Source of the DNA: Latilactobacillus curvatus JCM 1096 = DSM 20019
GTDB taxonomy: Bacteria; Bacillota; Bacilli; Lactobacillales; Lactobacillaceae
NCBI RefSeq assembly: GCF_004101845.1
Contig: NZ_CP026116.1
Location: 1,736,001-1,800,000 of the forward strand
Direction of reading: 5' to 3'
DNA: 64,000 bases
The translations under genes were made by a program, and so were the position numbers. A model generated the notes under the pieces. That model had not been told where the DNA came from. It did no database searches and saw only the letters and a program-made list of their open reading frames with translations. Of the stretch, positions 3,509 through 63,182 are shown piece by piece (the first letter of the stretch is position 1; each line of letters opens with the position of its first letter).

Positions 3509-4612
3509 ATGAAAAAGATATTATCTGATATTAAGAATCATGTGTTAACAGGGATTAGTTATATGATTCCGTTAGTTATTGCAGGTGCAGTAATTATGGC
3601 CATTTCTCGGGTGGGTGGTTCGATTTATGGCATTACTGATATTTGGGATGCAAAATATGCAGATAGTGCTAATGGCATAATTCAGTTGTTACATTCTATT
3701 GATGGCTTTGGGGGGACAGCGCTAGGGTTAATGTTCCCAATTATCTCTGCGTTTATCGCTTATTCAGTTGTTGATAAATTGGGAATCGCCCCTGGTTTAG
3801 TTGGTGGGATGCTTGTTAAAGATATCAACGCAGGGTTTTTAGGTGCGATTGCTTCTGGTTTAATTGCTGGGTATATCTGTTTGTGGATTAAAAACCATGT
3901 GAAATTACCCAAATCAATGTCATCAGTGGTACCCGTTTTCTTAGTACCAGTTATTGGAACACTTGCAACGGTACTTATTATCAATTACGTCATTGGTGTA
4001 CCATTTACAAGTATTAATGTTGGTCTTGAGAAGTGGTTAAACGGTTTAAGCGGTGGTAATCAAATTATTATGGCAGCAATTGTTGGCGCTATGGTTGGAT
4101 TTGACTTAGGTGGTCCTGTAAATAAAGCGGCCGTTACAACTGCAATGGCACTTTTAACGAGCCAAGTATACGCACCAAACACAGCTGCTCAAGTGGCAAT
4201 TATTATTCCACCAATTGGATTAGGATTGGCAACCGTATTTGCAAAAAATAAATATAATAGTGCCCTTCGTGAAGCTGGGAAGTCTTCAATCATCATGGGA
4301 CTAGTAGGTGTTAGTGAAGGTGCAATTCCATTTGCTGTTGAAAATCCATTAAAGGTAATTCCTTCAACCGTTATTGGATCAGCACTTGGGTCTGCCATGG
4401 CAGTTGGATTAGGTGCAGTTAATGAAGCCCCTATTAGTGGTTTTTATGGCTGGTTCACTGTAACAAAGTGGCCAATCTATATTCTTTCCGTAGCAACTGG
4501 CTCATTATTTGTTGCGATATCTAGTGTGTTATTGCGTAGTAAAGATGCAGGTAAGGAATTAGAAACAGAAGTAGTCGATTATGATGTTGATGAAGAAGAG
4601 TGGGAAAACTAA
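3509..4612 (+). CDS. PTS fructose-family EIIC permease
   Basis: A 367-residue membrane translocator with about ten hydrophobic segments. The family motifs GGMLVKDINAGFLGAIASGLIAGY and FDLGGPVNKAA are present, and the C-terminus is acidic (DYDVDEEEWEN). It has a strong AAGGAGG site. Its TAA overlaps the ATG of the alpha-mannosidase gene. From the downstream enzyme, the substrate is inferred to be an alpha-mannoside such as mannosylglycerate or a manno-disaccharide, imported as the 6-phosphate. Confidence 0.88.
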   Translation: MKKILSDIKNHVLTGISYMIPLVIAGAVIMAISRVGGSIYGITDIWDAKYADSANGIIQLLHSIDGFGGTALGLMFPIISAFIAYSVVDKLGIAPGLVGGMLVKDINAGFLGAIASGLIAGYICLWIKNHVKLPKSMSSVVPVFLVPVIGTLATVLIINYVIGVPFTSINVGLEKWLNGLSGGNQIIMAAIVGAMVGFDLGGPVNKAAVTTAMALLTSQVYAPNTAAQVAIIIPPIGLGLATVFAKNKYNSALREAGKSSIIMGLVGVSEGAIPFAVENPLKVIPSTVIGSALGSAMAVGLGAVNEAPISGFYGWFTVTKWPIYILSVATGSLFVAISSVLLRSKDAGKELETEVVDYDVDEEEWEN

Positions 4613-16913: not shown

Positions 16914-17026
16914 AGAGTGTGGCGTAAGTCGGGATGCTCCGAGGATTAACACAGAGCGTGAATAATTGTAGTAATTGTTTGCGACTCAGGGTTAACCGGA
17001 GGAGAATGACTTACAGAACACGTTTA
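16914..17026 (+). repeat. Structured 3'-UTR repeat, copy A
   Basis: Starts 5 bases after the lipoprotein stop. Ends are AGAGTGTG and AACACGTTTA, so the closing stem is GTGT/ACAC. P1 is GTAAGTC/GACTTAC and P2 is CTCC/GGAG. The loop is GAGGAT opposite ACCGGA, and P3 is TTAAC/GTTAA. The apical module (ACACAGAGCG ... CGACTCAGGGTTA) resembles that of copy G1. A terminator follows. Confidence 0.8.
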
Positions 17027-22857: not shown

Positions 22858-22987
22858 GGACTAATTTAGTTGCGTTTAACAAGTGATTATTTATGCAATT
22901 AGGGGGTGAACAATAGTTTACATTTACAAGGGGGAACGGTATTATTTAAAGCGGTACGAAAAAGACAAATGAAGGATGTGGCGTGTC

Positions 22988-24226
22988 GTGTATTTGCTTG
23001 TAAATGTTGTTGGATTACTGATTTTTATTGGAGTCGGCTTTCTGTTCTCAAAGAAAAAGAAAGAAATCGATTGGCGCTCCGTCTTAATCATGTTAGTGAT
23101 TAACTTAGTGCTTGCTTGGTTTTTAACGAGTTTTTCAATCGGGCGGGATATTGTTTTAGGTGCAGCAAACGGCTTTAACTGGTTAGTGCAAGTTGCCTAT
23201 ACTGGGATTGCTTTTGCACTACCAAGTTGGGTCAATGTGAAACAAATGGATTTCGTTGCTAGCGTGTTATTACCAATCTTGATGATTATCCCATTATTCG
23301 ATATCTTAACGTATATCGGGGTCTTGCCTTGGGTGATTAAATGGTTAGGCCGTGGGTTAGCTAAGATTACGGGACAACCAAAGTTTGAATCATTCTTTGC
23401 AGTTGAAATGATGTTTTTAGGCAATACCGAAGCATTAGCTGTTTCAAGCTTACAATTGAAACAAATGAAAGGAGAACGAACATTAACACTTGCGATGATG
23501 TCAATGAGCTGTGTGACAGCTTCCATCATCGGCGCATATACACAAATGATGCCGGGCCAATTTATTTTAACGGCGATTCCGGTCAACATTATTAACGCTA
23601 TTATTGTCACCAATATTTTAAACCCAGTGAAAGTCACACCCGAAGAAGATACGATTGCTAAAATGGGTGGGAGTGGTTCCGCAGCTGTTGAAGCAACCGA
23701 AATGGTTGAAGGCAAAGTGGAACGTGAACCATTCTTCTCATTCTTAGGTGATTCAATCTTAAATGCTGGTAAATTAGTTTTAATTATCACGGCAAACGTC
23801 ATCGCCTTTGTTGCGTTGGCTGCCTTGATCGACAAGGTGCTTCAATTAGTGAACCCTTGGATTACCCTTGAACATTTACTTGGAATCGTGATGTTCCCAT
23901 TCGCATGGTTAATGGGACTTGATGTGCACCACGCTTTTGAATTTGCACAATTCATGGGGACGAAGTTGGTGACCAACGAATTCGTTGTCATGGGTAAAGT
24001 CCAACATTCAATCGGGAGCTTCGCACCACATTACCAAGCTGTCTTAACGGTCTTCGTGACATCATTTGCCAACTTCTCAACAGTCGGCATGATCATCGGC
24101 GCCTTCAAAGGCCTTGTGGACCGTGAAAAGAACGACATGATTGCCAAAAACGTCGGCTACATGTTGCTATCAGGAATCTTAGTATCACTTCTTTCAGCAG
24201 CAACAGTCGGACTATTTGTATGGTAA
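22988..24226 (+). CDS. nupC: Concentrative nucleoside transporter (NupC/CNT family)
   Basis: Imports nucleosides with protons or sodium. About 412 residues, with CNT motifs in order: FNWLVQVAYTGIAF, PLFDILTYIGVLPWVIKWLGRGLAKITGQPKFESFFAVEMMFLGNTEALA, MMSMSCVTASIIGAYTQM, and PFAWLMGLDVHHAFEFAQFMGTKLVTNEFV. I prefer GTG 22988 (AAGGATG upstream) to ATG 22976, whose Shine-Dalgarno would abut it. Three tandem structured repeats follow the stop. Nucleoside scavenging fits a meat lifestyle. Confidence 0.88.
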   Translation: MYLLVNVVGLLIFIGVGFLFSKKKKEIDWRSVLIMLVINLVLAWFLTSFSIGRDIVLGAANGFNWLVQVAYTGIAFALPSWVNVKQMDFVASVLLPILMIIPLFDILTYIGVLPWVIKWLGRGLAKITGQPKFESFFAVEMMFLGNTEALAVSSLQLKQMKGERTLTLAMMSMSCVTASIIGAYTQMMPGQFILTAIPVNIINAIIVTNILNPVKVTPEEDTIAKMGGSGSAAVEATEMVEGKVEREPFFSFLGDSILNAGKLVLIITANVIAFVALAALIDKVLQLVNPWITLEHLLGIVMFPFAWLMGLDVHHAFEFAQFMGTKLVTNEFVVMGKVQHSIGSFAPHYQAVLTVFVTSFANFSTVGMIIGAFKGLVDREKNDMIAKNVGYMLLSGILVSLLSAATVGLFVW

Positions 24227-24231
24227 TTTAA

Positions 24232-24350
24232 AGAGTGCGCAGGCAGTCGGTTATCTTCTGAGGATTAGCCTAATCAGGCAGATTACCGACAAAGTCGGTG
24301 ATTTGACTGATGTAGCTAACCGGAAGAAGATGGCTGCCAAAGCACGTTTA
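24232..24350 (+). repeat. Structured 3'-UTR repeat, copy B1
   Basis: Starts 6 bases after the nupC stop. P1 is GGCAG/CTGCC and P2 is ATCTTC/GAAGAT. The internal loop is TGAGGAT opposite ACCGGAA, and P3 is TAGCC/GGCTA. The apical module carries CCGAC-AAA-GTCGG and is shared with copy C1. The last base is also the first of copy B2. Confidence 0.85.
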
Positions 24351-24470
24351 GAGTGCGTTTGATGACGGTTAACAACTGAGCATTAATACAAAATTCCCAA
24401 TAATCCGGGTTTTTAGGATTATTGGGAATTTTAGATTAAGCGGAAATTGTTGTCATCAAAAGCACGTTTA
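24350..24470 (+). repeat. Structured 3'-UTR repeat, copy B2
   Basis: P1 is TTTGATGAC/GTCATCAAA, perfectly paired. The loop is TGAGCAT opposite AGCGGAA and P3 is TAAT/ATTA. The apical stem is a perfect 17-bp hairpin (AAAATTCCCAATAATCC and complement), the same module type as copy D2. Confidence 0.85.
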
Positions 24471-24586
24471 GAGTGTGTCATTAACGGGTTGCTTTTGAAC
24501 ACTTGTCTAGTGTTGTGAATAATCAGCACAGCTGATTGTTTGCAATACGTAGCAAAACGCAGAAAGCAGTTAATGAAAGCACGTTT
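24470..24586 (+). repeat. Structured 3'-UTR repeat, copy B3
   Basis: P1 is CATTAAC/GTTAATG, P2 is TTGCTTT/AAAGCAG, and the ends are AGAGTGTG and AGCACGTTT. The internal loop is the least conserved of the set (TGAACAC opposite AACGCAG). An inner hairpin ATCAGC/GCTGAT lies in the apex. It is followed by tRNA-Gln 47 bases later. Confidence 0.75.
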
Positions 24587-24633
24587 CAATTCAATCAATT
24601 TACGGCGCCAACTTAATCTTGGTGCCGCATTAT

Positions 24634-24705
24634 TGGGCTATGGCCAAGCGGTAAGGCAACAGGTTTTGATCCTGTCATGCGCTGGTTCGAATCCAGCTAG
24701 CTCAA
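24634..24705 (+). tRNA. tRNA-Gln (anticodon TTG)
   Basis: The acceptor stem TGGGCTA/TAGCTCA contains a G-T pair. The anticodon stem is ACAGG/CCTGT with loop TTTTGAT, giving anticodon TTG. The T arm is GCTGG-TTCGAAT-CCAGC, and the D arm (GCCAAGCGGTAAGGC) is standard. CCA is not encoded. It stands alone between the nupC repeats and the aspS leader. Confidence 0.95.
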
Positions 24706-24719
24706 TCCAACTGCAAAAC

Positions 24720-24759: not shown

Positions 24760-24968
24760 AATAAAATGTAGCCATCGATAAAGTACTTGGTTTTAGCGAT
24801 CAATCACAGAGAGAGTAACCCCGTTGAAAGTTACTTATTGATTCCAGTTGACAGCTTTTGAGGCTTGGATGAATATCCCGCTAGCAGATAGCGTTATCAA
24901 CAGCTGAAATTAAAGGTGGTACCGTGCGCAAAGCACCCTTGTCGAAAGACGAGGGTGCTTTTTTTTAT
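24760..24968 (+). promoter_or_regulatory. T-box riboswitch of aspS
   Basis: A tRNA-sensing leader. The T-box core AAAGGTGGTACCGTGCG (24912-24928) is canonical. The terminator AAGCACCCTTGTC / GACGAGGGTGCTT with a T run lies at 24931-24966. In stem I, GATCAAT / ATTGATT and AGTAAC / GTTACT pair, and an AGAGAG bulge is present. The candidate specifier is GAC (Asp) at 24850-24852, followed by A. Uncharged tRNA-Asp would favour read-through into aspS and possibly racD. The specifier was chosen by eye. Confidence 0.88.
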
Positions 24969-34263: not shown

Positions 34264-34381
34264 AGAGTGCGTCACTAACGGTTTGCTTTTAAGCATTTGC
34301 CTAATCAGGCGGATTGCCGGTAAAGCCGGTGATGTGACTGATGTAGCAAGGCGCAGGAGGCAGTTAGTGTAAGCACGTTTA
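34264..34381 (+). repeat. Structured 3'-UTR repeat, copy C1
   Basis: Begins 8 bases after the xpk stop. P1 is CACTAAC/GTTAGTG, a one-step compensatory variant of B3 and G2. The loop is TAAGCAT opposite GGCGCAG. The apical module carries CCGGT-AAA-GCCGG and matches B1 with paired changes. Confidence 0.85.
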
Positions 34382-34387
34382 AGTGGA

Positions 34388-34505
34388 AGAGTGCGTTTGA
34401 ACTGGTTATCTTCTGAGCATTAACTGGATTTGACGAATTGACGATGTAATCGTCGATTTGGCAAATTTGGTTAAGCGTAGGAAGATGGTTCAAAAAGCAC
34501 GTTTA
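34388..34505 (+). repeat. Structured 3'-UTR repeat, copy C2
   Basis: P1 is TTTGAAC/GTTCAAA and P2 is ATCTTC/GAAGAT. The loop is TGAGCAT opposite AGCGTAG and P3 is TTAAC/GTTAA. The apical stem GACGAT-GTA-ATCGTC is of the same type as D1, E and G2. Six bases separate it from C1; a terminator follows. Confidence 0.85.
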
Positions 34506-34527: not shown

Positions 34528-34573
34528 AAGAAGGGTCTGGGACAAACATACTTTTGTCCTAGATTCTTTTTTG
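34528..34573 (+). terminator. Terminator after the xpk repeats
   Basis: GAAGGGTCTGGGACAAA / TTTGTCCTAGATTCTTTTTT, imperfect, with the shared GGGACAAA / TTTGTCC core. Confidence 0.7.
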
Positions 34574-34661: not shown

Positions 34662-36149
34662 ATGGCAAAAAATAAAATCCGAGTGCGGTATGCGCCAAGT
34701 CCAACAGGTCATTTGCACATCGGGAATGCTCGTACAGCATTGTTTAACTATTTATTTGCACGTCACAACAAAGGGACTTTCGTGATTCGGATTGAAGATA
34801 CTGACACGAAAAGAAACATTGCTGACGGTGAAAACAGTCAGTTAGATAATTTGAAGTGGCTAGGTATGGATTGGGATGAAGGTCCAGATAAGCCTGGTGA
34901 CTTTGGTCCTTATCGTCAATCAGAACGTCGCGAAATTTACACGCCTTTAATTGAAGAGTTAGTGGCTAAGGGATTAGCTTACGAATCATACAAAACAGAA
35001 GATGAATTAACTGAAGAACGGGAAGCCCAAAAAGCAGCTGGCGAAGCACCACGTTACATCTACGAATACGAAGGTATGAGTGATGATGAAATTAAGGCTA
35101 GCCAAGAAGCTGCTAAAGCAAAAGGCTTACAACCAGTTGTTCGTTTACGTCTTCCTAAGGATCACGTTTACAAGTTTGATGACATTGTTAAAGGTGAAAT
35201 CAGCTTTGAATCAGATCGTTTAGGTGGCGACTTTGTCATCATGAAACGCGATGGGATGCCAACATATAACTTTGCCGTTGTCGTTGATGATCACTTGATG
35301 GAAATCACCCATGTCTTGCGTGGGGACGATCATATCGCCAACACGCCAAAACAATTGGCTGTCTACGAAGCCTTTGGTTGGGAACCACCAGTCTTTGGCC
35401 ACATGACATTGATCATCAATACTGAAACAGGTAAGAAGTTAAGTAAACGTGATGAATCAGTGCTTCAATTTATCGAACAATACCGCGAATTGGGTTACTT
35501 ACCAGAAGCGATGTTTAACTTTATCGCCCTATTAGGTTGGTCACCAGTTGGCGAAAGCGAATTGTTCAATCGCCAAGAATTCATCAAACAATTTGATCCA
35601 AAACGTTTGAGCAAATCACCAGCTAGTTTCGATCAAAAGAAACTCGAATGGGTGAATAACCAATACGTTAAACAATCAGATCCAAACAAAATCATGGATC
35701 TTTCGTTAGAAAGCTTGATTAAAGCGGGTAAAATCGCTGAAAATCCTGATAGCAAAATGATCGAATGGGCCCGTCATTTGATTGCGTTATACCAAGATCA
35801 AATGAGCTACACAGCTCAAATCGTTGAAATGTCAGATGTCTTCTTTGAAGAACCTGAACAATTAGACGCCGAAGCGCTTGAAGAATTAAATAACGAAACA
35901 GCATCCGTTGTTTTGAAGGAATTCAGCGAACGCTTGAAAGATTTAACATTATTCACAGCACCACGGATTATGCAAATCATTAAAGGCATCCAAAAAGATA
36001 CGAAGATTAAAGGCCGTCAATTGTACATGCCAATTCGGATTGCAACGACTCGCGAAATGCATGGTCCATCATTACCTGATTCAATCGAATTGTTAGGTAA
36101 AGACCGTGTCCTAGCCCACCTTGAAAAGACATTAGCAGAAATTAAATAA
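34662..36149 (+). CDS. gltX: Glutamyl-tRNA synthetase
   Basis: Class Ib synthetase charging tRNA-Glu. In bacteria lacking GlnRS it also mischarges tRNA-Gln for the amidotransferase route. 495 residues. HIGH-type [18 protein letters not shown]-type [10 protein letters not shown], and the typical [25 protein letters not shown] lies upstream. The stop codon overlaps the first base of structured repeat D1. Confidence 0.97.
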
Positions 36150-36265
36150 AGTACGTTTGAAACGGGTAGCTTCTGAGCATTAACAGGATTTGACGAATTA
36201 CCGATGCAATCGGCGATTTGGCAAATTTGGTTAAGCGCAGGAAGCTGTTTAAAAAAGCACGTTTA
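36149..36265 (+). repeat. Structured 3'-UTR repeat, copy D1
   Basis: Starts on the last base of the gltX stop codon, with a variant 5' end AAGTACG. P2 is AGCTTC/GAAGCT, the loop is TGAGCAT opposite AGCGCAG, and P3 is TTAAC/GTTAA. The apical stem ACCGAT-GCA-ATCGG differs from C2 by a paired A-T to C-G change. Confidence 0.82.
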
Positions 36266-36270
36266 AGAAT

Positions 36271-36391
36271 AGAGTGCGTTTGGTTGCGTTCAGCAACTGA
36301 GCATTAATAAAAAATTGGTAGTTATCCAGAATTCAGGATGACTACCAATTTTTTATTAAGCGGAAGTTGGTGCAACCAAAAAGCACGTTTA
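36271..36391 (+). repeat. Structured 3'-UTR repeat, copy D2
   Basis: P1 is TTTGGTTGC/GCAACCAAA. The loop is TGAGCAT opposite AGCGGAA. The apex is a long hairpin (TAAAAAATTGGTAGT with near-exact complement), the same module as B2 but with a different sequence. It is followed by the gltX/rpiR terminator. Confidence 0.85.
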
Positions 36392-41407: not shown

Positions 41408-42450
41408 GGTAGATTGTAAAATTAATCCGAACGCTGTTCGGACAAAAAAGATCAGCTTCCTTTAAAATGGTGTTTACCACAAACCCATCTTTTAGGAGCT
41501 GATCTTTTGTCTAGTATAACCTATTCCGAACGAATTAAAATCGAAACCTTTTGTGAACTAGGGCTGTCCAATATCCAAATGGGCGTTCGGCTGAACCGAT
41601 CACCGTCAACAATTTCTTATGAATTATCTCGATGTCAACCTTATCAGGCTGAATTAGCACAAACAGATGCCGAATACAAGCGATCACGATGTGGTCGGAA
41701 AACTAAGCTGAGCGATGAGTTAAAGCAAAAAATTCTCAACCATTTACGTCTAAGCTGGTCACCAGGAATGATTGCTCACGAATTTAAACTAGCTACTAAA
41801 TCTATTTATAATTGGCTAAATCAGGGGAGAATTGGTTTCTCCTTGAATGATCTACCTGAACATGGCGTACGCCAACGGCGTAACGTTGACCAACGATCCA
41901 AATATAATCAATCTTTGGGGCGATCAATTGAACAGCGTCCCATGATGATTAATCAACGTAAGCGCATCGGCGATTTTGAACTAGATACAGTCGTTGGTCC
42001 TCGTGGGCATAGTAAGGCAGTTTTATTAACTTTAATCGATCGAAAATCACGGTTCCTTTGGGCATACCGGTTAAAAGATCGGACGACAGCGACTGTTAAT
42101 GAAGCACTAACTAAGTTCCTAACCACTTTTAATGGTCCGGTGCACAGCTTTACTGTGGACCGTGGCACTGAGTTTAGTGGGCTAGTATCACTTGAATCAC
42201 AATATGGTATTAAGACCTATTACTGCCATGCTTATACTCCAGCTGAACGTGGTAGTAATGAACGCTTTAATCGGAATTTACGTTATTTTTATCCTAAAGG
42301 GACTCGTTTTGAGCACATTAGTGCTCAAGATTTAACGACGACGTTACTCCAAATTAACCAGCGACCGCTTAAAATACTCGACTGGCAAACACCGTATCAG
42401 GTTATGCTGACAAATTTGTCCAAAAATTCGGATTAAATTTGCAATCTACC
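41408..42450 (+). mobile_element. IS30-family insertion sequence, copy 1 (ISLsa1-like), 1043 bp
   Basis: Terminal inverted repeats GGTAGATTGTAAAATTAATC (left) and the complement of GATTAAATTTGCAATCTACC (right), two mismatches. It is flanked by the 4-bp direct repeat TGTT (41404-41407 and 42451-42454). It carries one transposase gene. Just inside the left end are a palindrome CCGAAC-GCT-GTTCGG (41427-41441) and a long hairpin covering the transposase start. Intact. Confidence 0.95.
41507..42436 (+). CDS. IS30-family transposase, copy 1
   Basis: A 309-residue DDE transposase. The N-terminal HTH region (LSNIQMGVRLNRSPSTISYELSR, then a second HTH at SWSPGMIAHEFKLATKSIYNWL) binds the ends. Catalytic Asp residues lie in GDFELDTVVGPRG and FTVDRGTEFSG, and the Glu in TPAERGSNERFNRNLRYFYPKGT. 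It starts at TTG with AGGAG upstream, both inside the 3' arm of a hairpin (41446-41457 with 41497-41508), which should limit expression from outside transcripts. Confidence 0.95.
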   Translation: MSSITYSERIKIETFCELGLSNIQMGVRLNRSPSTISYELSRCQPYQAELAQTDAEYKRSRCGRKTKLSDELKQKILNHLRLSWSPGMIAHEFKLATKSIYNWLNQGRIGFSLNDLPEHGVRQRRNVDQRSKYNQSLGRSIEQRPMMINQRKRIGDFELDTVVGPRGHSKAVLLTLIDRKSRFLWAYRLKDRTTATVNEALTKFLTTFNGPVHSFTVDRGTEFSGLVSLESQYGIKTYYCHAYTPAERGSNERFNRNLRYFYPKGTRFEHISAQDLTTTLLQINQRPLKILDWQTPYQVMLTNLSKNSD

Positions 42451-44900: not shown

Positions 44901-45009
44901 AGAGTGCGCAAGCAGGCGTTTATATTTCGAGTATTAACTGGATTTGTCTGCAATCGCCGATGCGACAAGTTTGGTTAAGCACAGGAATATGCCTGCTGGA
45001 GCACGTTTA
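44901..45009 (+). repeat. Structured 3'-UTR repeat, copy E
   Basis: Starts 1 base after the mgtC-like stop. P1 is AGCAGGC/GCCTGCT and P2 is ATATT/AATAT. The loop is CGAGTAT opposite AGCACAG, with P3 TTAAC/GTTAA. The apex is of the ACTGGATTTG ... type (as C2 and D1) but shorter. A terminator follows 41 bases later. Confidence 0.82.
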
Positions 45010-53276: not shown

Positions 53277-54319
53277 GGTAGATTGCAAATTTAATCCGAA
53301 TTTTTGGACAAATTTGTCAGCATAACCTGATACGGTGTTTGCCAGTCGAGTATTTTAAGCGGTCGCTGGTTAATTTGGAGTAACGTCGTCGTTAAATCTT
53401 GAGCACTAATGTGCTCAAAACGAGTCCCTTTAGGATAAAAATAACGTAAATTCCGATTAAAGCGTTCATTACTACCACGTTCAGCTGGCGTATAAGCATG
53501 GCAGTAATAGGTCTTAATACCATATTGTGATTCAAGTGATACTAGCCCACTAAACTCAGTGCCACGGTCCACAGTAAAGCTGTGCACCGGACCATTAAAA
53601 GTGGTTAGGAACTTAGTTAGTGCTTCATTAACAGTCGCTGTCGTCCGATCTTTTAACCGGTATGCCCAAAGGAACCGTGATTTGCGATCGATTAAAGTTA
53701 ATAAAACTGCCTTACTATGCCCACGAGGACCAACGACTGTATCTAGTTCAAAATCGCCGATGCGCTTACGTTGATTAATCATCATGGGACGCTGTTCAAT
53801 TGATCGCCCCAAAGATTGATTATATTTGGATCGTTGGTCAACGTTACGCCGTTGGCGTACGCCATGTTCAGGTAGATCATTCAAGGAGAAACCAATTCTC
53901 CCCTGATTTAGCCAATTATAAATAGATTTAGTAGCTAGTTTAAATTCGTGAGCAATCATTCCTGGTGACCAGCTTAGACGTAAATGGTTGAGAATTTTTT
54001 GCTTTAACTCATCGCTCAGCTTAGTTTTCCGACCACATCGTGATCGCTTGTATTCGGCATCTGTTTGTGCTAATTCAGCCTGATAAGGTTGACATCGAGA
54101 TAATTCATAAGAAATTGTTGACGGTGATCGGTTCAGCCGAACGCCCATTTGGATATTGGACAGCCCTAGTTCACAAAAGGTTTCGATTTTAATTCGTTCG
54201 GAATAGGTTATACTAGACAAAAGATCAGCTCCTAAAAGATGGGTTTGTGGTAAACACCATTTTAAAGGAAGCTGATCTTTTTTGTCCGAACAGCGTTCGG
54301 ATTAATTTTACAATCTACC
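53277..54319 (-). mobile_element. IS30-family insertion sequence, copy 2 (ISLsa1-like), inverted
   Basis: Same 1043-bp element as copy 1 on the opposite strand, with GGTAGATTG / CAATCTACC ends and the 4-bp direct repeat TTGT at 53273-53276 and 54320-54323. Two silent sites distinguish the copies: this one has T at the first (as copy 1) and C at the second (as copy 3). Confidence 0.95.
53291..54220 (-). CDS. IS30-family transposase, copy 2
   Basis: Protein identical to the other two 309-residue copies, with intact DDE residues and the same TTG start and RBS-masking hairpin. Probably active. Confidence 0.95.
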   Translation of the reverse strand: MSSITYSERIKIETFCELGLSNIQMGVRLNRSPSTISYELSRCQPYQAELAQTDAEYKRSRCGRKTKLSDELKQKILNHLRLSWSPGMIAHEFKLATKSIYNWLNQGRIGFSLNDLPEHGVRQRRNVDQRSKYNQSLGRSIEQRPMMINQRKRIGDFELDTVVGPRGHSKAVLLTLIDRKSRFLWAYRLKDRTTATVNEALTKFLTTFNGPVHSFTVDRGTEFSGLVSLESQYGIKTYYCHAYTPAERGSNERFNRNLRYFYPKGTRFEHISAQDLTTTLLQINQRPLKILDWQTPYQVMLTNLSKNSD

Positions 54320-55388: not shown

Positions 55389-56431
55389 GGTAGATTGTAA
55401 AATTAATCCGAACGCTGTTCGGACAAAAAAGATCAGCTTCCTTTAAAATGGTGTTTACCACAAACCCATCTTTTAGGAGCTGATCTTTTGTCTAGTATAA
55501 CCTATTCCGAACGAATTAAAATCGAAACCTTTTGTGAACTAGGGCTGTCCAATATCCAAATGGGCGTTCGGCTGAACCGATCACCGTCAACAATTTCTTA
55601 TGAATTATCTCGATGTCAACCTTATCAGGCTGAATTAGCACAAACAGATGCCGAATACAAGCGATCACGATGTGGTCGGAAAACTAAGCTGAGCGATGAG
55701 TTAAAGCAAAAAATTCTCAACCATTTACGTCTAAGCTGGTCACCAGGAATGATTGCTCACGAATTTAAACTAGCTACTAAATCTATTTATAATTGGCTAA
55801 ATCAGGGGAGAATTGGCTTCTCCTTGAATGATCTACCTGAACATGGCGTACGCCAACGGCGTAACGTTGACCAACGATCCAAATATAATCAATCTTTGGG
55901 GCGATCAATTGAACAGCGTCCCATGATGATTAATCAACGTAAGCGCATCGGCGATTTTGAACTAGATACAGTCGTTGGTCCTCGTGGGCATAGTAAGGCA
56001 GTTTTATTAACTTTAATCGATCGCAAATCACGGTTCCTTTGGGCATACCGGTTAAAAGATCGGACGACAGCGACTGTTAATGAAGCACTAACTAAGTTCC
56101 TAACCACTTTTAATGGTCCGGTGCACAGCTTTACTGTGGACCGTGGCACTGAGTTTAGTGGGCTAGTATCACTTGAATCACAATATGGTATTAAGACCTA
56201 TTACTGCCATGCTTATACTCCAGCTGAACGTGGTAGTAATGAACGCTTTAATCGGAATTTACGTTATTTTTATCCTAAAGGGACTCGTTTTGAGCACATT
56301 AGTGCTCAAGATTTAACGACGACGTTACTCCAAATTAACCAGCGACCGCTTAAAATACTCGACTGGCAAACACCGTATCAGGTTATGCTGACAAATTTGT
56401 CCAAAAATTCGGATTAAATTTGCAATCTACC
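55389..56431 (+). mobile_element. IS30-family insertion sequence, copy 3 (ISLsa1-like)
   Basis: The same 1043-bp element in direct orientation, with the 4-bp direct repeat ATTG at 55385-55388 and 56432-56435. The right copy of ATTG is the start of the palindrome ATTGTATATACAAT, so the element entered at the edge of that palindrome and left one whole copy next to the downstream gene. Confidence 0.95.
55488..56417 (+). CDS. IS30-family transposase, copy 3
   Basis: Protein identical to copies 1 and 2; it differs from copy 1 only by silent changes (in the codon for Gly in IGFSL and in DRKSR). TTG start with AGGAG in a hairpin arm. Reads towards the decayed operon and could feed transcription into it. 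Confidence 0.95.
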   Translation: MSSITYSERIKIETFCELGLSNIQMGVRLNRSPSTISYELSRCQPYQAELAQTDAEYKRSRCGRKTKLSDELKQKILNHLRLSWSPGMIAHEFKLATKSIYNWLNQGRIGFSLNDLPEHGVRQRRNVDQRSKYNQSLGRSIEQRPMMINQRKRIGDFELDTVVGPRGHSKAVLLTLIDRKSRFLWAYRLKDRTTATVNEALTKFLTTFNGPVHSFTVDRGTEFSGLVSLESQYGIKTYYCHAYTPAERGSNERFNRNLRYFYPKGTRFEHISAQDLTTTLLQINQRPLKILDWQTPYQVMLTNLSKNSD

Positions 56432-61385: not shown

Positions 61386-61455
61386 AAAGCGTGTGCCATA
61401 AGTCGGGATACCCTGAGGATTAGCCGGAAGGGGATGACTTATAAGAACACGTTTA
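61386..61455 (+). repeat. Structured 3'-UTR repeat, copy F (minimal form)
   Basis: Starts within 2 bases of the dipeptidase stop. Closing stem GTGT/ACAC, P1 ATAAGTC/GACTTAT, P2 CCC/GGG, then TGAGGAT and GCCGGAA joined with no apical module. It is 70 bases against about 115 for the others. A terminator follows. Confidence 0.8.
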
Positions 61456-61476: not shown

Positions 61477-61521
61477 AAAAAAGGGGCTGAGACAAAATTT
61501 GCTTTTGTCTCAGCCCCTTTT
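61477..61521. terminator. Bidirectional terminator between dipeptidase and pepC
   Basis: AAAAGGGGCTGAGACAAAA with its exact complement around TTTGC. It carries the GRGACAAA / TTTGTCTC core. Confidence 0.92.
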
Positions 61522-62942: not shown

Positions 62943-63059
62943 AAACGTGCTTTCATCAACAACTTCTTCCGCCTTACCTCACTTGCCAAATCGGCGACTG
63001 CATTGCCAATTCGTCAAGTGCTGTAAGTGCTCAGAAGTAACCCGTTGATGGCGCACTCT
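62943..63059 (-). repeat. Structured 3'-UTR repeat, copy G2
   Basis: Read on the minus strand: ends AGAGTGCG / AGCACGTTT, P1 CATCAAC/GTTGATG, P2 ACTTC/GAAGT. The loop is TGAGCAC opposite AGGCGGAA and P3 is TTAC/GTAA. The apex contains CACTTGACGAATTGG ... GATTTGGCAAGTG, of the C2/D1 type. It lies 6 bases after copy G1 in the direction of transcription. Confidence 0.82.
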
Positions 63060-63065
63060 GATTTG

Positions 63066-63182
63066 AAACGTGCTCCGTAAGCCATATCCTTCCGGTTAAC
63101 CCTGAACGTCAAACGATTGCTGGCGCAATCCTTCGCCGTTCTGTGTTAATCCTCAGGATAAACTCGGCTTACTACGCACTCT
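63066..63182 (-). repeat. Structured 3'-UTR repeat, copy G1
   Basis: Read on the minus strand it begins on the stop codon of the pepC paralogue (TAGAGTGCG). P1 is GTAAGCC/GGCTTAC, P2 TATCC/GGATA, the loop TGAGGAT opposite ACCGGAA, and P3 TTAAC/GTTAA. The apical module ACACAGAACG ... CGTTCAGGGTTA matches copy A with a paired change (GAACG/CGTTC). Confidence 0.83.

Follow-up and report, generated by a model that had tools for sequence, protein, structure and literature searches.

The EFAR elements of Enterococcus, reportedly described by De Gregorio and colleagues in 2009, are said to be palindromic intergenic repeats of about 170 bp that replace terminator-like stem-loops. The repeats bcr1 and RUP are not known outside a single species group each. 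Both are named, together with BOX, among the dispersed repeats of Gram-positive bacteria in the excerpted texts of PMC2267715 and PMC3733652. The excerpt of the latter also states that the termini of GTAG-REPs often supply the TAG stop codon to flanking open reading frames (ORFs) (PMC3733652), and REPs whose distance to a stop codon is below 16 nt have been found to stall ribosomes and to lower translation (Liang et al., 2015, as cited in the excerpted text of PMC12306157). Here we describe a family of hairpins in Latilactobacillus curvatus, taking as focus a triple array that lies behind the nucleoside transporter gene nupC in a window of 64,000 nucleotides, the whole stretch of DNA that was analysed (Table 1).

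The initial annotation had described nupC followed by three head-to-tail units, and model scores, folding and Pfam bear these coordinates out. The TAA stop codon of nupC ends 5 bases before the first unit, an L. curvatus record matches the focal 571 bases at 100% identity, and the NupC protein shares 99% identity with that of L. fragifolii and 93% with that of L. fuchuensis. The three units score 87–120 bits with the family model, which was itself built partly from them, and their + strand folds with z-scores of -5.7 to -9.3. That the array precedes a tRNA-Gln gene was read correctly, while the distance of 47 bases is to be corrected to 46.

Table 1. Units and neighbouring genes in the window (positions count from the first base of the window).
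Feature	Position	Strand	Remarks
Single unit	16914..17025	+	4 bases 3' of stop codon; terminator-like sequence next
nupC-type nucleoside transporter gene	22976..24226	+	ORF call; Pfam Nucleos_tra2
Focal unit 1, 118-nt hairpin element	24232..24349	+	120 bits; 90% identity to G000:C1:26972-27090
Focal unit 2, no spacer to unit 1	24350..24469	+	114.8 bits; 93% identity to G000:C1:1003737-1003855
Focal unit 3, no spacer to unit 2	24470..24586	+	87.1 bits; nearest relative 77%
tRNA-Gln(TTG), 46 bases 3' of focal array	24633..24709	+	tRNA call
Two-unit array	34264..34504	+	7-base linker (34381-34387); 7 bases 3' of phosphoketolase gene
Two-unit array	36148..36390	+	6-base linker (36265-36270); unit 1 overlaps gltX stop by 2 bases
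Single unit	44901..45008	+	1 base 3' of stop codon
Trimmed unit, without apical part	61388..61454	+	67 bases
Two-unit array	62943..63182	-	6-base linker (63060-63065); AG of first unit completes TAG of upstream gene

Where a unit begins and ends was judged on 156 units of 105–130 nt on contig C1, 102 of which end in GTTT. The base that follows GTTT in these 102 units varies (C in 52, A in 34, T in 15 and G in 1), and the A of GCACGTTTA that had been taken as shared by two neighbours therefore lies outside the unit, so that the focal units simply abut. At the base of the hairpin the first three bases pair with the last three in 118 of the 156 units, which sets the unit ends at AGA...TTT; a pair between position 1 and the last base is present in 123 of them, where shuffling gives 102 on average and 115 at most, and the short ends AGAGTGCG...GCACGTTT are conserved. 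The supposed one-base overlap thus gives way to a zero-base junction, and a junction formed by overlapping unit ends is not tenable either, because the shared A is no unit end. Such zero-base junctions make up 8 of 71 in the 91 arrays, a count that covers neighbours on the same strand with no more than 20 nt between them. A spacing of 6 nt is the mode (41 junctions), 5 nt occurs 11 times and 7 nt 6 times, and the rarer spacings are 8 nt and 9 nt (two each) and 3 nt (one). The gap of 6 bases first given for the other pairs in the window is right for two arrays and close for the third, where it is 7.

A covariance model built from 22 units, 10 of these within the window, retrieved at least 150 copies in a whole-genome search; a closer search of unit-bearing stretches added 13, and one overlapping poor match was dropped. 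The total for this genome of 1.92 Mb is at least 162 copies, grouped in 91 arrays, a figure that includes three copies on the small contig C2 repeating chromosomal ones and a few trimmed units. This copy number is far beyond chance. The segment C2:11057-12395 seems, by spacing, scores and the ORF in between, to repeat C1:1589246-1590584 together with its arrays, be it as a real duplication or as an assembly effect. All six genomes of the genus carry the family; two hold 21 and 24 copies, and the other four hold between 141 and at least 150. Draws from larger taxa were made with stricter filters, at which weak matches are lost. Among the Lactobacillaceae, units were found in 147 of 301 genomes, which belong to 21 of the 40 genera sampled; the order had 57 matching genomes out of 395, with weaker matches in three other families, and the class 2 out of 398, namely the source genome and one of the same order.

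Rfam covariance models gave no match over the units in the window at the gathering threshold and none over the units of 20 unit-bearing loci at E<=1. The focal array had no match in the phage collection and matched only two plasmid records, both of L. curvatus, and the gene content of one of these is chromosomal; no plasmid matched L279, a unit-bearing region that comes from a different family of the order. A 592-kb record labelled as a plasmid (CP117684.1; L239, L328 and L329) carries mutS, mutL, groL and gltX and therefore looks like part of the chromosome; locus L328 also carries a gene annotated as IS30-like ISLpl1. No description of the family was found in the literature, as judged from titles and the beginnings of abstracts, and the hairpin family provisionally seems to be undescribed so far.

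Each unit is one long imperfect hairpin of about 118 nt. Across 134 distinct units and 38 pairs, 95.5% of the cells are paired compared to a shuffled mean of 69.7%, and covariation reaches 0.712 compared to 0.227, with neither value attained in any of 500 shuffles. These figures are favoured by an alignment that was fitted to the same model, and the margin is large. Sliding the partner by 1–3 columns lowers pairing to 32–43%. Pairs changed on both sides, a weak measure, number 34, which was equalled in 16 of 500 shuffles. The hairpin is kept by covariation. Paired columns contain 437 G·U against 78 A·C combinations, an excess from which it follows that the gene-sense strand is the folding strand. 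The conserved unpaired bases comprise a side bulge, an internal loop, which looks like a tandem G·A, and a bulged A. The apex of the hairpin seems dispensable; the trimmed unit of the window has a 66-base counterpart at the matching site in G003, and a still shorter one is found in G005 at another site. An intrinsic terminator, that is a hairpin followed directly by a U-run, was considered for the unit and rejected, since the base after GTTT is C or A in 86 of the 102 units.

The placement of most arrays follows the stop codons of upstream genes. ORFs were called mechanically, so that single cases may be wrong; by these calls the upstream ORF lies on the same strand for 74 of the 91 arrays and on the other strand for 17. 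As many as 58 of the 74 same-strand arrays start at -3 to +7 relative to the stop codon, the other 16 lying outside this range, while 15.3 would be expected under uniform placement (73 arrays) and the maximum in 10,000 simulation runs was 27. Exactly at -2, where the unit overlaps the stop codon by two bases, 32 arrays start compared to 3.7 expected, and it is the AG of the unit that completes TAG in 29 of them and AA that completes TAA in 3. Among 55 arrays from other genomes, a sample of top-scoring loci of which some come from the genus itself, 44 are on the strand of the upstream ORF and 9 opposite, the remaining 2 lacking an upstream ORF, and 36 of the 44 same-strand arrays start at -3 to +16. 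In the source genome, 15 of the 58 stop-adjacent arrays oppose the local majority orientation, which was set by hand from array positions, and all of these still match their own gene.

A home-made detector found a terminator-like hairpin 3' of 50 of the 74 same-strand arrays and of 5 of the 17 others. A Shine-Dalgarno-like sequence with a close co-directional ORF comes next for 9 of the 21 arrays with a terminal A versus 3 of the 65 with a terminal T. To the eye, one terminator-like sequence, GGGYCTGRGACAAA...TTTGTCYYAGRYYC, recurs 3' of several units (for example at window positions 34533-34570 and 61483-61520); in other genera, the unit and this sequence are separated by a stretch resembling CTATAAATGTTCGGA. 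The full module of unit, intervening stretch and terminator-like sequence may measure about 200 bases.

Some further observations concern the surroundings of the arrays. The tRNA-Gln gene 3' of nupC aligns with a degenerate copy in L. fragifolii (L009, about 4250-4330), where ARAGORN makes no call, and at the same site downstream of nupC a tRNA call is absent in L010, L144 and L147 and present in L145 and L146. Upstream of aspS, window positions 24808-24950 hold what we take to be a T-box-like leader, going by the motif GGTGGTACCG; Rfam at the gathering threshold made no call on these positions. Three transposase-like ORFs of 309 amino acids with rve and HTH_38 domains and identical Pfam scores occur in the window (41507-42436, 53291-54220 and 55488-56417). 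A REPtron-like gene flanked by units was also considered and discarded, since the ORFs situated between two arrays resemble housekeeping genes; by eye, we presume them to be gltX-, rpsN-, rnhC-, pepC-, pepQ-, CrcB- and Sir2-like.

Between species the arrays turn over readily. None of five other Latilactobacillus genomes (G001-G005) has a unit at the focal site, so that no gene seems to need the hairpin found there. When G004 is compared with its close relative G005, all 22 G004 arrays can be placed, and the unit number, determined by model matches with remnants counted as none, is equal at 6 sites and different at 16. In a second L. curvatus record, array length is equal within one base at 15 of 15 comparable sites; no copying or strain-level activity is therefore seen. 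The expectation that array size would vary by strain or species accordingly holds between species, given the 16 of 22 differing arrays and the five empty focal sites, and is not borne out by the two L. curvatus records compared. Single sites give a closer picture of this turnover. One stop codon is followed in two species by units only 76% alike, with flanks 94% and 90% identical. On the 3' side of the phosphoketolase gene, where the flanks of G004 and G005 are 98.3–98.8% identical, G004 has a unit and a different terminator-like sequence and G005 a short terminator-like stretch. The site of the minus-strand array of Table 1 holds two different units with zero linker in G003.

In some cases two neighbours are fused into a single unit, a form that would be consistent with deletion between short repeats. 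Changes in place were followed in 12 matched G004/G005 unit pairs of >=86% identity, with one identical pair omitted; changed positions amount to 41 of 1037 paired versus 42 of 376 unpaired ones (p = 2e-6), and 20 of 39 changed pairs are still paired versus 37% expected (p = 0.048). Constraint on the units in place is, by these sequence comparisons, likely and not strong. Of the 121 units in multi-unit arrays, 110 are closest to a unit elsewhere than in their own array, with a median best identity of 0.88 outside compared to 0.71 inside, a comparison that is biased in that candidates outside are more numerous. A fixed order of G-type and C-type units was tried and set aside, the two-unit arrays being GC in 8 cases and CG in 2, but CC in 16.

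The explanation that we favour, and hold to be rather probable, is that of a non-coding family of hairpins of about 118 nt that docks at stop codons, has a REP-like role at gene 3' ends and spreads RAYT-free. Arrays would gather separately copied members in one orientation, as the similarities among copies suggest; some units would also be doubled exactly in tandem, and deletions between short repeats would remove many. The units would be transcribed within the message of the upstream gene, and a terminating ribosome would at once meet a REP-like 3'-end hairpin, by which the upstream message might be shielded or tuned, and termination, the release of the ribosome or mRNA decay might be affected. 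Spread would proceed by some process other than a resident RAYT or IS200 enzyme. The functional steps in this chain are ones that we infer. A wider proposal is put forward tentatively: across the family, the units could be stop-docked 3'-UTR hairpins in a module of ribosome, hairpin and terminator that tunes termination, release or decay, and they could be copied RAYT-free to new stop codons, perhaps via the transcript or transcribed DNA. With 58 arrays in the source genome that start at or near a stop codon and consist of one to four similar hairpins each, the family would, if transcribed, offer a natural series for asking whether, in Gram-positive bacteria, the release of ribosomes and the decay of mRNA are controlled by structure directly behind the stop codon. 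The family also raises the puzzle of a repeat that reaches stop codons without a known transposase.

Other explanations account for parts of these observations. The units might be selfish non-autonomous elements with no host role that are tolerated behind stop codons and whose hairpin is kept for a copying enzyme or process, a possibility that fits the quick gain and loss of sites between species, the decay of copies to fragments and copy numbers from 21 to at least 150 within one genus. We nevertheless consider it a doubtful account, since selfishness alone leaves unexplained both the exact docking at stop codons, with 32 arrays at -2 where 3.7 are expected, and the lower rate of change of paired positions, and since no copying enzyme was identified. 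The initial annotation had pointed to REPIN-like or IS200-mobilised elements. The first half of this comparison stands insofar as the units form a dispersed family of REP-like hairpins, whereas the layout is not that of REPINs, as neighbours run head-to-tail. Movement of REPIN or IS200/IS605 elements by a RAYT is improbable here: a search for Y1_Tnp gave no match in the source genome, despite its at least 162 copies, with 5 of 14 control genomes positive, and among the six genomes of the genus a single marginal one is found, in G003 (E = 8.7e-4), a genome with few copies. Few pairs are inverted, reading by eye the ORFs that lie between two arrays revealed no transposase, and arrays next to a stop codon share the strand of their gene even where this opposes the majority orientation. 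What speaks for a RAYT is the high copy number, a hairpin with conserved unpaired bases, four convergent unit pairs 14–86 nt apart (one within 20 nt and three at 69–86 nt) and the more frequent occurrence of Y1_Tnp in unit-bearing Lactobacillaceae genomes (56 of 147 versus 37 of 154 others, p = 0.009, uncorrected for ancestry).

That the units are DDE-type MITEs with terminal inverted repeats and target-site duplication is very improbable. A target-site duplication of constant length was rejected, as 48 of the 91 arrays have no repeat at their exact ends, and the complementarity spans the whole unit. The conserved short ends would suit such an element. There is also a slight excess of short direct repeats at the exact array ends (15 of 2 bases versus 7.7 expected, and 6 of 4–6 bases versus 2.2) and near them (mean 4.69 versus 4.07, shuffled maximum 4.29), to which the A-rich flanks may contribute. 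As the origin of the triple array, tandem duplication in place, whether through slippage or through unequal crossing-over, is hardly credible; it would agree with the duplication process once suggested for the focal array. Tandem doubling is, as far as sequence can tell, a process that occurs in some arrays, and five neighbouring pairs elsewhere are 99–100% identical. The focal units, however, are only 61–66% alike, close to the all-pairs mean of 68%, and the first two of them have relatives of 90–93% identity elsewhere, which argues that the array was assembled and not duplicated in place. The focal array was probably gathered from different members of the family.

Compared with known repeat families, these hairpins share with the REP/BIME elements of Enterobacteria and with GTAG-REPs that they are high-copy extragenic hairpins near gene 3' ends. 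REPs, however, measure 20–40 bp and the units here about 118 nt; the constant GTAG/CGTC tag of REPs is absent, the 5' ends being AGA, GAA, TGA, AAA and TAA; the units differ from REPINs in standing head-to-tail with a 6-base or zero linker, inverted pairs being rare; and no RAYT was found in the source genome. Because size, tag, layout and enzyme all differ, the units are not filed as a REP family: they would work like REPs from a common position, and perhaps with a common effect. The likeness to bcr1, RUP and BOX consists in being intergenic, structured and high in copy number, and the difference in that no constant target duplication is found here and that the family occurs in 21 of 40 sampled genera of the Lactobacillaceae. 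EFAR elements, going by their description, would come closest among known systems. They reportedly consist of two stem-loops, whereas the units are single hairpins. The model also finds weaker matches elsewhere in the order, in three further families. A replacement of a terminator-like stretch similar to that described for EFAR is seen in one clean case, between G004 and G005 at the phosphoketolase gene, where the unit may have been gained or lost.
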